From positions 1 to 43,925 of the forward strand of contig JALOQR010000003.1 of NCBI GenBank assembly GCA_025459365.1: DNA of 43,925 nucleotides. Direction: 5' to 3'. The first letter of the stretch is position 1, and every line of letters starts with the position of its first letter. Shown here piece by piece: positions 763 through 43,916 of the stretch. Position numbers and translations under genes: made by a program. The stretch comes from Fimbriiglobus sp. Its GTDB lineage: Bacteria; Planctomycetota; Planctomycetia; Gemmatales; Gemmataceae. Below the pieces are notes generated by a model. That model had not been told where the DNA came from. It did not search any database and was given only the letters and a program-made list of their open reading frames with translations.

Positions 763-810
763 AGGGGGGGTATGTGTGTGGCAGGTGGCAGTGTGGCAGA
801 GAGGGGGGGG
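763..810. repeat. G-rich dispersed repeat, copy 1
   Basis: Two runs of seven to eight G flank a GT/GGCAG-rich core. Bases 771-809 are identical to 43877-43915 at the other end of the window, in the same orientation. Both copies sit in intergenic DNA. The core repeats the unit GTGGCAG. This is too long and specific to be chance, so it belongs to a dispersed repeat family of unknown role. Confidence 0.8.
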
Positions 811-1007: not shown

Positions 1008-2984
1008 ATGGCAGACGTCATCGTCGGCATCGACCTCGGCACCACGAACAGCGAAGTGGCGATCGTGGAGAACGGTCGGCCGCGCGTCATCAACGTGGAT
1101 GGCGATCCTATCTTGCCCTCCGTGGTCGGGCTGGCCGACGATGGCCGATTGCTCGTCGGCAAACCGGCCCGCAACCAGTTCGTGCTCGCGCCGGATCGCA
1201 CGGTGAAGTCGATCAAGCGGAAGATGGGCCTCGATGTGAAAGTGCCGATCGGCGACCAGCAGTTCCGGCCACAAGAAATCTCCGCCATGATCCTGCGGCG
1301 GCTCAAGGAGGCCGCGGAGAAAGACCTCGGCAAGCCGGTGACGAAGGCCGTCGTGACGGTGCCGGCTTACTTCAACGACTCCCAGCGGCAAGCCACCCGC
1401 GAAGCCGGACAACTCGCCGGGCTGGAGGTGGTGCGAATCCTGAACGAGCCAACCGCCGCCGCTCTGACTTACACCCCCGACCCCAGCGGGACAGAGAAAT
1501 TCCTGGTGTACGACCTGGGGGGCGGGACGTTCGATGTGAGCGTACTGACGGCCGAAGACGGAGTCTTCGAGGTACTGAGTAGCCACGGTGATACTCAACT
1601 CGGTGGCGACGACTTCGACGAACTGTTCTTGAACGCCGTAGCCGACGAGTTCGAGCGGATGTACTGCGTCGATCTGCGGGCCAACAAATCGAGCCGGGCA
1701 CGGCTCCTGCGGGGGGTGGAGAACGCCAAGAAAGCGCTCTCCGATCATGCCTTCACCAAAATCGAAGAGGAATTCATCGCCGAGAAGGACGGGGTGCCGC
1801 TGCACCTGTCGCAGGAGTTCAGCCGCGGTGAATTTGAAGCACTCATCGCCCCGCTGATCGATCGCACCATGCAATGCGTGCAGAAGGCGCTCGACGACGC
1901 ACGCCTGACCGCTGCTCAGATCAAGCAGGTCGTGCTGGTCGGCGGTAGCACTCGCATCCCGATGATCGGCCGGTTGCTCGAAGAGCGACTCGGTCAGCCG
2001 GCACACCGCGAGGTTCACCCAGACTTGTGCGTCGCCCTCGGTGCGGCAGTGCAGGCGGCGATCGTGGCGGGCGAGAGCGTCGGGGCGGTGCTCGTCGATA
2101 TCACCCCGCACAGCCTCGGCATCAAGTCGTTGGAAATCCCGGATTCGTTCTCCCTCCATCCGAACGAGTTCAAGTTTACCCCCATCATCACCCGCAATAC
2201 CCCCCTGCCTGCCTCGCGGAGCGAGGTGTTCTGCACCGTGTCGGACAACCAGCCGACGGTGGAGATTGATGTCTTCCAGGGGGAAAGCGGGGACGTGCGG
2301 CGAAACCACCGCGTTGGTAAGTTCATGGTGGAAGGATTGGCCCGCGTCCCGGCCGGAAACCAACTCGTCGTGCAGATGGACCTGACGCTCGACGGCACGC
2401 TCAAGGTGAGCGCCCGAGAAAAAGGGACTGGTCTACTTCGCCAGGTGACGATCGAGAACGCGATGGCCCGGTTCGCAGTGGAGGAACGCGACGCCGCACA
2501 GCAACGGCTCGACCGCATGTGGGCGAATCCGAGTTGGGACGAAGAGGCGGAAGAGAACGGCGATCCGCTCAGCGTGTCGGACATCATCCCCGACGACGAA
2601 GAGGAGGACTTCGACGACATTCCGTTCGGCGGCGACGACGACGACGACGACGAAAACCCCTTCGCAGTGGACGACGAGGAGGAAGACGAACCGGAGCCAG
2701 AACCGGCCGAGCGTTCGCCGCAGCCGCAATCGCGGATCAGTGGGCTAACCGCTCCAGCCCCGACGCCGCCATCGGCCGCCGAGGGGAGCCGCGAGACTGC
2801 CCAGGCTGATAGTCTGCTGGCGAAGGTGGCACGAATCCGCGAGAAGGCGTCGGCGGAGGACCAGGCCGAACTCGACAAACTCACCGGGCGGTTGCGGGCC
2901 GCGGTTGACGACCGCCGCTGGGCCGACGTGCAAACCGCATGTACCGAACTGGCCGACGTGCTCTTCTACCTGGAAGACAGTTGA
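1008..2984 (+). CDS. Hsp70 (DnaK-like) chaperone with acidic C-terminal region
   Basis: This 658-residue protein has the Hsp70 ATPase domain: phosphate-1 loop GIDLGTTNS near residues 7-15, AYFNDSQRQATREAG near 120-134, phosphate-2 loop DLGGGTFDVSVL at 169-180, and the adenosine motif VGGSTRIPMI at 311-320. The linker region reads VLVDITPHSLGI, and a beta substrate-binding domain extends to about 485. Instead of the normal helical lid there is a short helix, then a strongly acidic low-complexity tract (about 511-566, many D and E), a proline-rich linker, and a final helical segment (600-658) ending in LFYLEDS. It is expected to be a cytoplasmic ATP-dependent chaperone. No grpE or dnaJ is next to it, so it is probably a paralogue rather than the main DnaK. 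The ATG at 1008 is chosen because the family motif begins within the first ten residues. Confidence 0.95.
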   Translation: MADVIVGIDLGTTNSEVAIVENGRPRVINVDGDPILPSVVGLADDGRLLVGKPARNQFVLAPDRTVKSIKRKMGLDVKVPIGDQQFRPQEISAMILRRLKEAAEKDLGKPVTKAVVTVPAYFNDSQRQATREAGQLAGLEVVRILNEPTAAALTYTPDPSGTEKFLVYDLGGGTFDVSVLTAEDGVFEVLSSHGDTQLGGDDFDELFLNAVADEFERMYCVDLRANKSSRARLLRGVENAKKALSDHAFTKIEEEFIAEKDGVPLHLSQEFSRGEFEALIAPLIDRTMQCVQKALDDARLTAAQIKQVVLVGGSTRIPMIGRLLEERLGQPAHREVHPDLCVALGAAVQAAIVAGESVGAVLVDITPHSLGIKSLEIPDSFSLHPNEFKFTPIITRNTPLPASRSEVFCTVSDNQPTVEIDVFQGESGDVRRNHRVGKFMVEGLARVPAGNQLVVQMDLTLDGTLKVSAREKGTGLLRQVTIENAMARFAVEERDAAQQRLDRMWANPSWDEEAEENGDPLSVSDIIPDDEEEDFDDIPFGGDDDDDDENPFAVDDEEEDEPEPEPAERSPQPQSRISGLTAPAPTPPSAAEGSRETAQADSLLAKVARIREKASAEDQAELDKLTGRLRAAVDDRRWADVQTACTELADVLFYLEDS

Positions 2985-40074: not shown

Positions 40075-43000
40075 TCACTCGCCGTCCTGCTTCTGCTGCC
40101 CGCGTTTCTTCGCCTTCTTCATCCGGCTCATGAAGTCGTCGTCTTCTTCCTCCGTCTTGGTGCTACCGCGGGGTGGCGGAGGCGGCGGGAGTGCCCCGCC
40201 CTTCTTGCCCACGTCGGCCGCGTAGTCGTCGGCACCGGCGGGGGCGGCGTCGGCTGGTAGGTCGTCGGCCGCCTCGAACTTGCGAGCCGCCCGCTTGGCG
40301 ATGGCCGCCGCCGTCGCTTGCTTGCGCTGGCCCAGCCGCGAGAGCACCCCGTCTTCGTCCGGCGGAAGGTCTTCACCCCGCCGCAGCTTCGCCCAGAGCC
40401 GCCGTGCCCCGCTGCGTACCTCCTTGAACTCCAGCGAGATTCGCCGCACGCCGACGTCGAGGAAAAGGAGCAGGCCAGCGGCGAACACCAGCCAGAACCA
40501 GAACGGCAGCACCGACCGCACCACTTCCGGGCCGGGGCGGTAGAAGTCGTGCGCTTTCACCAGCGCCGAGGGGTCGTTCGGTTCGTCGAAGTACTGTCCG
40601 CCGGTCGCCTCGGCCAGTTTCTTCATCAGGGCGGTGTTCGACTCCAGATCGATGTACTCGGGCGAGTACGGCACCGTCACGCCCGCTCGCGCCCCGAATG
40701 CCCGCCGCTTCGGCACCATCACCGGCTGGCCGTTCTTGTCGAGCAGGGGCTTACCTTCCTTGTCCGTCTGGGGCACCAGGATCGGCCGGCCGTTCTCGTC
40801 CAGTTCGTCCACCTCGGCCTGCACGTTCAGGAAGTACGCCCCGGCCTCGGTGGCGTCGAACTCGGCCTCGTAGAACCCGTTCTTGTTCGGCTTGAACACC
40901 ACGCCGGGGGTCTTGTCGCCGGGGCCGGGCTTGTTCGGGGTCGAGACCCCGCCGCGGAGCGTCAGGCCGGCGAGCGGCAGCGGCTTGCCGTTCTTGTCCT
41001 TCGCCTGGTTCTCGGCGGTGACGGTCACTTTCACCTTACCGTCGACGTACCGGGTCGAGACGGCCAGTTCACCGCTCTCGGCCTCCCGCATGGCCCAGTT
41101 GACCACGTTCTCCCAGAACTTCTGAGCGATGCCGTCGGCCGCCCAGTTGCGGCCCCAGCCCTTGGCGTCGTTGCGGGCGTCGGAGGTGAACGCCACCGCC
41201 TTGCCGAGGCCGTACCGCCAGGTGGCGAGGATGGGGAACTCCTGCTCGGGGGCCTGCTTGTCCTTCGGCCCCTCGATCCACATGGTCTGGGTGGGGGACT
41301 GTTTGTTGGTGGTGCGGACGAACCCGAACAGGCTGGGGAGGTTGTCGGCCAGCCCGTCGGTTGGGGCGCCGCGGAAGCGGAGGTCGGGGCGGAACTCGCG
41401 ATCGAAAATGAAGCTCTGGGAGATCTTGCGCGTCTCCTTGATGTAGATGGCTGGCAGGTCTTTGCCTGTTTTGGGCTTGTGGAAGTTGCCGGGGTTACCG
41501 TTGGCGTCCTTGGTGCTCTCGGCGATCTGCCGCATTTTCTGGTCTTCGGGGGCGCCGTGGGTGGCCACCCCGATGGTCGTGCAGGTAGCCCCGTTGTCGG
41601 ACATCTTCTTGAGGGCCGCCTGGCCGGCGGCGGCAAACATCGGGTCGCCATCCGAGATGAGGATGCAGTGCTTGACCGACAGGTTGTGCTTGGGGTCGGT
41701 GAGGGTGTCGGCAGCGGCTTCCAGGAAGGGGTCGAAGTCAGGCATGTCGCCGGGGCTCATCTTGTCGATCTTGGCGTACAGCTCCGGCTTGCGGTCGCCG
41801 ATCACCTCGAACGGGATGATCCAGTTCACCTGCCCGCCGACGAACTGCCAGTCGACCACACCCACCATGTCGGCCGGGTTCAGCCGCTGGATGGCCAGCT
41901 TGGCCATCTCCTTCTGCCACTTGTTCCCGTCGGCCATCTCGGAGGCGTGCATGATGAGCACCAGCCCGCCCTTGCCCAGCGCCTTCTTCGCCTTGATCTC
42001 GCACTCGACCGGCAGGGCCGCCTCAATGGGCGTTTGCTGATACCCACCGGGGCCGTAGCTGTCCGGCCCGCCGAGCATCACCAGCCCGCACCCCTGGTCG
42101 TACACCTGAGTGCGGATCACCTCGGCCTGGTCCTCGGTGAAGTCGTCGTAGGGTACGTTGGCCAGGATGACGCAGTCGAAGTTGCTCAGGTACACGCCGA
42201 GGTCGGTCTTGTTCTTCGGCAGCCGCTCGGCCGGCTGGATCAGGAACTGGATCTTCGCCTTCCGCAGTTGTTCGAGGAGGAAGGTGTGCTTCGCCACCTC
42301 GTCGGCCTTGGCCTGGGTGAGGAAGAGCACCCGGCGGGTACCACGGGCGACCACCGCCGCGTCGGCTGTATTGTTGGCGATACGGTCGCCGGCCGATTGC
42401 CCCTCGTCGGGCACGAACTTCGCCCGGTAGGTGTATGAGGCGTCGGCCCGGGCCTGCTCACGGTCGCGGAACTTGAACACGTTCAGCCCCGGCTTCAGCC
42501 GCACCCGTGCCGGCTTCTCCTTCAGGTTCAGCACCTCGGGGCCGTCGTCGATGTCGATGGGCACCTCGCGGTCGGTTGGCTGGTCGGCCTCCTGTTGTCC
42601 GCCGATGCGGATCAACTCCAGGGTGCCAGTCACATCGCGGTTCGGGCTGGCGTTGCGGACATACACACGGATCGGCAACCGCGAACCCGTGGCCGCGACC
42701 GGCGGAGCCTCGACGGCCTGAACGAGCACATCCGACTCGTTCTTACCGTTCGGGGCGAGGGCGATGGAGTCGATCACCACGCCGTTTTTGCGGGCTAGCT
42801 CGGCCTGCTCCTCGGCGTTCCCCAGGTTCTGGTTGCCGTCCGACACCAGGACCACTCGCTTGCCGCTCCCCTCAGGAAACGACGCCAGCGCCAGCTTGAG
42901 GGCCGCTCCGATGTCGGTGTAGTTCTCGTCCAGAATGACGCCGGCTTCGTCGATGCGGTTCTTGAGGGCGAGAACCGGCGTCGGCGGGAAGGCGAGCTTC

Positions 43001-43773
43001 GGCCGCTTGGCGAACATCATCACGCCGAACTGGTCGCTGCGGTTCACGCCATACCGGGCCGACGTGCTCCCCTCGATCAACTCCTGAATCCGCCCCCAGC
43101 GACGGTCGATGGCATCGCCGCTGAGCGTCTTCTCCCGCTCTCGGGGCACGCTCGCCGAGCGATCGACCACGAACAGCACCGTCATGTTTTCGCTTGGCCG
43201 CCGCACCCGTGGCTCGGCCAGGGCAAGGACAATCAGCACCACCACCAGCGTGCGGGCGGTGATGGCCACCCACCGCCGCACCGGCCCCAACCCCGACAGG
43301 CTCTTGCGGCCGATGATGTACACCAGCGGGGCGAGCGCCAGCAGCAGCAACCACCACGGGGAGACAAATCGCGTGTAGAACACGCTCTTGCCCGCTTCGG
43401 CCAGGAACTCCGCCGTCGGCCGGCCGACCCACCCGCCGAACCCCGCCACCGCCACCACGCCGAGCAACCCAGCCAGGATGCCGTTCCAGAAGCGTACAGT
43501 CAGCACCAGCATGACGAGGGCGTACAGCATGGCGACCGCCGCCAGCATGACCCCGCCACCGAGCGACCACCGTTCCCCGCCGGTGGAGAGGCTCCACTTC
43601 CACCCGTGCAGGAACACCGACCCGAGCGCAAACGCCCCCATCCCGACGGCGAGAGTGACGAGCAGAGGCACGTTCCGCCGGCCGACAGCGGCAAGCAGGC
43701 CGCACACCCCGGCGGCGACGAGCAGCACCAGGGCCAGCCAGTGGGTGGCGAGCAGGTCGAGCAACTGGGTCAT
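40075..43773 (-). CDS. Large membrane protein with VWA and GATase-like domains
   Basis: A 1232-residue protein. Six membrane helices lie in the first 190 residues (9-30, 35-56, 75-95, 98-118, 140-155, 168-187), then a VWA domain (about 198-370) with the metal-ion site DRSAS (D204, S206, S208). It continues with a beta-rich part and a GATase1-like domain (about 510-760), into which a second, degenerate VWA domain is nested (HASEM in place of DxSxS near 606-610), and ends with a helix near 1085-1105 and a charged cytoplasmic tail. Proteins of this layout occur beside BatA-like genes in planctomycetes. A gluing or scaffolding role at the membrane is inferred from VWA. The ATG at 43773 begins the first helix; an upstream ATG at 43848 is an alternative. 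Its promoter region adjoins the repeat at 43866. Confidence 0.85.
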   Translation of the reverse strand: MTQLLDLLATHWLALVLLVAAGVCGLLAAVGRRNVPLLVTLAVGMGAFALGSVFLHGWKWSLSTGGERWSLGGGVMLAAVAMLYALVMLVLTVRFWNGILAGLLGVVAVAGFGGWVGRPTAEFLAEAGKSVFYTRFVSPWWLLLLALAPLVYIIGRKSLSGLGPVRRWVAITARTLVVVLIVLALAEPRVRRPSENMTVLFVVDRSASVPREREKTLSGDAIDRRWGRIQELIEGSTSARYGVNRSDQFGVMMFAKRPKLAFPPTPVLALKNRIDEAGVILDENYTDIGAALKLALASFPEGSGKRVVLVSDGNQNLGNAEEQAELARKNGVVIDSIALAPNGKNESDVLVQAVEAPPVAATGSRLPIRVYVRNASPNRDVTGTLELIRIGGQQEADQPTDREVPIDIDDGPEVLNLKEKPARVRLKPGLNVFKFRDREQARADASYTYRAKFVPDEGQSAGDRIANNTADAAVVARGTRRVLFLTQAKADEVAKHTFLLEQLRKAKIQFLIQPAERLPKNKTDLGVYLSNFDCVILANVPYDDFTEDQAEVIRTQVYDQGCGLVMLGGPDSYGPGGYQQTPIEAALPVECEIKAKKALGKGGLVLIMHASEMADGNKWQKEMAKLAIQRLNPADMVGVVDWQFVGGQVNWIIPFEVIGDRKPELYAKIDKMSPGDMPDFDPFLEAAADTLTDPKHNLSVKHCILISDGDPMFAAAGQAALKKMSDNGATCTTIGVATHGAPEDQKMRQIAESTKDANGNPGNFHKPKTGKDLPAIYIKETRKISQSFIFDREFRPDLRFRGAPTDGLADNLPSLFGFVRTTNKQSPTQTMWIEGPKDKQAPEQEFPILATWRYGLGKAVAFTSDARNDAKGWGRNWAADGIAQKFWENVVNWAMREAESGELAVSTRYVDGKVKVTVTAENQAKDKNGKPLPLAGLTLRGGVSTPNKPGPGDKTPGVVFKPNKNGFYEAEFDATEAGAYFLNVQAEVDELDENGRPILVPQTDKEGKPLLDKNGQPVMVPKRRAFGARAGVTVPYSPEYIDLESNTALMKKLAEATGGQYFDEPNDPSALVKAHDFYRPGPEVVRSVLPFWFWLVFAAGLLLFLDVGVRRISLEFKEVRSGARRLWAKLRRGEDLPPDEDGVLSRLGQRKQATAAAIAKRAARKFEAADDLPADAAPAGADDYAADVGKKGGALPPPPPPRGSTKTEEEDDDFMSRMKKAKKRGQQKQDGE

Positions 43774-43865
43774 CGATGGAGTGCCTGAGTCCCAGCGGGC
43801 AGTCAGTAACGCTCCCGTCAGGGTATCAGAAACCGGGCCGGAATGCACCGCGGGGGGTGCCCTGT

Positions 43866-43916
43866 CAGGGGGGGGATATGTGTGTGGCAGGTGGCAGTGT
43901 GGCAGAGAGGGGGGGT
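43866..43916. repeat. G-rich dispersed repeat, copy 2
   Basis: The second copy of the element at 763-810: bases 43877-43915 are identical to 771-809, in the same orientation, again between two G-runs. It lies about 93 bases upstream of the VWA gene start. Confidence 0.8.

Follow-up and report, generated by a model that had tools for sequence, protein, structure and literature searches.

A near-identical, G-framed GTGGCAG core in a decayed MITE-like repeat family of a Fimbriiglobus genome

The 39-base G-rich repeat that lies near both ends of the window (the whole stretch of Fimbriiglobus sp. DNA analysed here, 43,925 nucleotides) is the centre of an intergenic element of about 205 bp. Its core has stayed near-identical from copy to copy while the remainder has decayed, a contrast that suggests some role for the core. 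We give roughly even odds (about 0.5) to the following chain as a whole: the element would have spread in the manner of a miniature transposable element (MITE), its arms would have decayed, and the G-framed core would have been selected as a putative protein-binding DNA site. We infer transposition, selection and protein binding alike from the sequence of one fragmented genome.

Repeat copies in the window

The window spans the whole of contig C408, one of 471 in an assembly of 5.0 Mb that is 89.8% complete. Sequence comparison within the window confirms the original prediction: bases 43877-43915 repeat bases 771-809 exactly and in the same direction. The pair is the longest same-strand repeat joining distant places of the window. 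The predicted framing by G-runs and the GTGGCAG unit are likewise present, with runs on both sides and three units in each copy, at 778, 785 and 793 in copy 1 and at 43884, 43891 and 43899 in copy 2. Copy 1 is located in the gap between the gene that ends at 457 and the start of the Hsp70 gene at 1008, and copy 2 lies 5' of a VWA gene on the minus strand (40075-43773; Pfam). With the contig ending at 43925, the far side of copy 2 falls outside the assembled sequence. Further contigs also end near a core (C52, C59, C315 and C350), and such contig ends probably account for the two copies at opposite ends of the window. Copy 1 runs from its left inverted-repeat end to a decayed right end, and copy 2 is truncated: what remains of its left end has fused to the G-run, with loss of the left arm. 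The features are as follows.

689-893, + strand: full-length element copy 1, about 205 bp (R1 left-arm match 683-763; R2 right-arm match 813-901)
689-705, + strand: left inverted-repeat end CTGTCCGGGGTCGGTGG of copy 1 (exact genome-wide pattern match)
764-770, + strand: left G-run (G7) of copy 1, from the window sequence
771-802, + strand: conserved core TATGTGTGTGGCAGGTGGCAGTGTGGCAGAGA of copy 1 (core searches, conservation comparison)
803-810, + strand: right G-run (G8) of copy 1, from the window sequence
811-893, + strand: right arm of type A, copy 1 (R2 match 813-901, 68 bits)
877-893, + strand: decayed right inverted-repeat end CGACCGACTCCGATCCG of copy 1, within the right arm
43862-43875, + strand: left-end remnant (CTGTCAGGGG) of copy 2 joined straight to the G-run, the left arm being deleted
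43868-43875, + strand: G-run left of the core, copy 2, from the window sequence
43877-43908, + strand: conserved core of copy 2 (core searches)
43909-43915, + strand: right G-run of copy 2, 10 bp before the contig end

Pyrimidines and purines alternate over the first core bases (771-780, TATRTGYGTG), and the variants observed there are transitions that preserve the alternation; a Z-DNA-like tract at this place is only suggestive. The Hsp70 gene (window 1008-2984) is 81% identical to its closest same-genus counterpart. In the three same-genus genomes compared by synteny for an empty site, Hsp70 closely follows another gene, so that the comparison does not bear on insertion; the gene directly upstream of Hsp70 in three relatives (possibly grpE) differs from that found here, where a 151-aa frame without a Pfam match precedes it.

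Copy number and taxonomic range

A 31-mer search with at most 3 mismatches matched 121 genomic places (64 forward, 57 reverse) and its reversed controls none, so that the repeat is not a product of chance. With a 23-mer and at most 2 mismatches, 146 places were found in the 5.0-Mb genome, again with no match for reversed controls, and a search for cores with variant spacing added 9, giving at least 155 in total. That the 39-mer belongs to a real high-copy repeat family is, in our judgement, practically certain.

The original prediction had made a functional family depend on copies beyond these two and on conservation in relatives. Copies number about 155, whereas neither the core pattern nor the left-arm model matched any of 94 further genomes from the family, among which three are of the same genus (for the model, filters were stricter when more than 40 genomes were searched); the repeat family is therefore confined to this lineage. 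No exact core match was present among IMG/VR viral contigs, and the literature on Gemmata and Gemmataceae yielded no repeats of such kind. The genome collection held one match beyond the records of the source genome, a GTGGCAGA octamer array in a Phycisphaerales metagenome-assembled genome (MAG). A pattern of two units occurred in 9 of 392 sampled genomes of the phylum, source genome included, mostly in one or few places. The GTGGCAG unit thus occurs in other genomes too, whereas the element, as far as sampled, is limited to this lineage.

Architecture of the element

Alignment of many copies placed inverted-repeat ends about 75-90 bp outward on either side of the G-framed middle, which corrects the earlier remark that no end-repeat is seen. 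From left to right, the element comprises a CTGTC(A/C)GGGGTCGG end, a left arm, G6-8, TATRTGYGTGGCAGGTGGCAGTGTGGCAGAGN, G6-8, a right arm and an inverted end, the last being the complement of the left end and decayed in many copies. The end pattern has 31 genome-wide matches, and those compared with fetched sequence are element ends. Among 25 copies with both ends detected, 24 measure 172-235 bp and the 25th 125 bp. The core between the G-runs is 32 nt long and the G-framed middle 47 bp; both runs reach at least G6 in 83 of 90 copies. The prediction of a non-autonomous or regulatory repeat stands in that the family is real, non-coding and probably non-autonomous, but the 39-mer is merely the centre of a larger element.

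All copies share one internal orientation, and copies without one or both recognisable arms still retain the core. The units are spaced 7 and then 8 bp apart in 94% of copies; minor core forms have two units (loci L178, L182 and L183) or 8-bp spacing. Left and right arms each fall into types A and B, classes that are approximate, and their combinations (29/6/15/7) show no significant association (Fisher p = 0.22), which makes the family modular around its core. Just past the right end of some copies (L060, L061, L064 and L074) there is a G-rich stretch that ends in GGGGGGTGAGGT or a sequence much like it; this stretch resembles a distinct second repeat adjoining the element.

Mobility

The arms look like those of a decayed MITE. 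The element is short (under 500 bp), non-coding, high in copy number and mainly intergenic, as MITEs are, and it has terminal inverted repeats. Inverted ends, modular decay and truncation are as in an ageing MITE; the centre is not. Most mobile repeats have constrained ends and a free middle, and ends less conserved than the centre are unusual for a MITE. We call the element MITE-like rather than a MITE because no target-site duplication was detected in 25 copies at lengths of 2-9 bp against re-paired flanks (smallest p = 0.066), a result that does not decide the matter since such duplications fade with age (PMC10969869).

No autonomous relative sharing the CTGTC(A/C)GGGGTCGG ends was seen in the fragmented, 89.8% complete assembly. 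The genome has seven Y1_Tnp (RAYT/IS200-like) genes, on contigs C267, C157, C386, C441, C278, C464 and C290; neither core nor arm was present at the four Y1_Tnp loci that were fetched, and we rejected an assignment to REP/BIME repeats moved by a RAYT. Nesting of the core into older arms was also rejected, as readable arm matches already hold the core in 80 of 81 cases and in one orientation. We propose that the element spread as a non-autonomous, MITE-like repeat mobilised in trans by a transposase since lost or missing from the assembly, and that its copies would then have aged in place while ends and arms decayed.

Core conservation and arm decay

Sampling by the left arm alone (profile R1; 95 matches) provided copies that were not picked by their core, although the arms used to train the profile came from copies with a core. 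We examined 85 of these matches; 4 lay too close to a contig end, and 80 of the other 81 carry the core, the sole readable exception being locus L188. In these copies core identity averages 98% and the core is exact in 57 of 80, whereas left-arm identity is 78% to the consensus and 67% pairwise. The nearest neighbour of a left arm is at a median of 84% identity, and none reaches 95%. The arm tree, built on no more than 78 columns and with poor resolution, has a mean terminal branch of 0.16 substitutions per site. In 36 gap-free A-type copies, a core-selected set for which the left-arm-sampled figure is the fairer one, per-site variation was 12.5% in the 40 bp beside the G-run versus 0.8% in the core. 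The ends are the worst-preserved part of the element and the centre the best-preserved. The exact conservation had been ascribed to recent spread, gene conversion or selection. Recent spread is not enough by itself: even among the copies most alike, the arms have diverged by 6% or more, with no change in the core.

Core changes are found almost wholly at three positions (R at 4, Y at 7 and N at 32). When the variants at positions 4 and 32 were placed on the arm tree they recurred on separate branches: the 9 variant copies of one set require 8 changes, and the 14 of the other require 14.

Homogenisation, in which the core would be kept identical by exchange among copies through recombination or gene conversion, or through some other copying process with both its limits in the G-runs, is a real though minority prospect. 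The boundaries of the conserved part are sharp and located at the G-runs, and the 7-then-8-bp spacing of most copies is derived relative to octamer forms. The free combination of two left and two right arm types round one core keeps this explanation alive, because exchange within the core would give it. On the other hand, conversion tracts limited to about 47 bp would be unusually short, and the recurrence of core variants at the same three sites, with the two that were tested lying on separate branches, looks like tolerated degeneracy.

We regard as rather unlikely that the core is constrained at its source only, being needed for movement without any host function, with several diverged, long-lived source lineages. 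CORE-SINEs offer an analogue, a conserved core required for movement. Near-universal presence of the core in arm-bearing copies (80/81), its sharing by several arm types and the uniform internal orientation are all consistent with such a constraint. Recent movers should, however, give near-identical arm pairs, of which none reaches 95%, and truncated copies without recognisable arms retain the core.

Selection at each site is the reading that we prefer over both, because each arm has decayed on its own course, the core survives in truncated copies, and the changes that it tolerates turn up repeatedly at the same positions. The G-framed unit (G6-8, TATRTGYGTGGCAGGTGGCAGTGTGGCAGAGN, G6-8) may have been retained by purifying selection as a DNA-level site and is probably a constrained, putatively protein-bound one. 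The most likely candidate would be a binding site for a protein recognising the three direct repeats of GTGGCAG, with the G-runs possibly assisting the binding.

Genomic placement and candidate functions

All 73 copies with enough context are intergenic, as claimed for the two window copies, according to a simple codon-usage gene caller, whose calls are approximate; of the sequence in which they lie, 84% is coding. Tandem, divergent and convergent gaps are occupied about as in the background (p = 0.2). Core orientation had no relation to local GC skew (p = 0.29), indicating no replication-strand rule. Because gap classes are close to background and orientation relative to genes is nearly free, placement argues against a main role as leader, promoter or terminator, and the earlier doubt about a simple leader role is borne out by copies in all three gap classes and both orientations. 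For the same reason of orientation, a chromosome-scale role (nucleoid or domain organisation, recombination) or non-directional regulation would fit better.

That the repeat is transcribed as a structured RNA or acts as a directional regulator is very improbable. The downstream gene is co-oriented for 46 of 73 copies, a weak excess (uncorrected p = 0.03) that would agree with it, but the occupation of convergent gaps would not; Rfam gave no matches in the window and 7 loci, and copy 1 folded no better than shuffled sequences on either strand (z 0.62 and 1.09).

The G-runs had also been put forward as possible quadruplex formers. A canonical motif of four G-tracts with short loops occurs in only 1 of 94 copies, but pairs of GGG-N-GGG on both sides make an unusual long-loop form possible in 67 of 94. 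A repeat acting through its folded G-strand, like the intergenic GGGNATC repeats of Xanthomonas and Nostoc, could draw on this and on the runs of at least six G that flank most cores. We find it improbable, as the 32-nt sequence between the runs is conserved as much as the runs, which the loop of a quadruplex would not need.

Comparison with known repeats

The element belongs, as a variant, among the known modular, MITE-like intergenic repeats. The closest described case is BrickBuilt, a MITE of Porphyromonas gingivalis with a minisatellite centre (PMC4596501), although the resemblance is architectural and the repeat units differ. Both are species-limited and intergenic, with a tandem-repeat centre between distinct arms and small inverted ends, and in both copies may miss an arm (leader or tail in BrickBuilt), no leader-to-tail version of BrickBuilt lacking the repeat (PMC4596501). 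BrickBuilt has 19 copies against about 155 here, and its 23-nt unit is repeated imperfectly from 1 to about 23 times, whereas the present triple is fixed at 7/8-bp spacing and barely varies (PMC4596501); the G-run boundaries are a further difference.

The GGGNATC heptamers are G-rich direct repeats of about 7 bp, dispersed and mainly intergenic, as here, but they form free tandem arrays of variable unit number with canonical G4 motifs (PMC4692102), in contrast to units of near-fixed number inside an inverted-end element that almost lacks such motifs. By description, Correia elements (204 bp, more than 120 copies) are comparable in size and copy number, and Correia and ERIC repeats share intergenic location and inverted ends (PMC10969869); here the ends are worst preserved and the centre best, and neither a target-site duplication nor a promoter role emerged. 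The GTGGCAGA octamer arrays of a few other planctomycetes (for example at L200, in the Phycisphaerales MAG) are intergenic and have GTGGCAG at 8-bp spacing but are plain, without G-runs, arms or inverted ends. The Phycisphaerales genome has 67 pattern matches genome-wide, with the array at L200:5803-5832 directly 3' of a gene, and one of the few other planctomycete genomes with similar arrays has GTGGCACA/GTGGCGCA variants.

Implications

The usual pattern is reversed in this family: the arms decay and the 47-bp G-framed middle does not. If homogenisation were the cause, the conversion unit would be unusually short and also worth describing. As a tentative extension that we hold to be doubtful, a decayed MITE may have seeded about 155 G-framed triple-GTGGCAG sites which the host has kept under strong purifying selection, in one lineage, as a chromosome-organising or global regulatory network with a putative cognate protein. 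If selection is indeed at work, a selfish repeat would have given its host an entire network of putative binding sites, and this in a phylum where little is understood of how chromosomes are organised.
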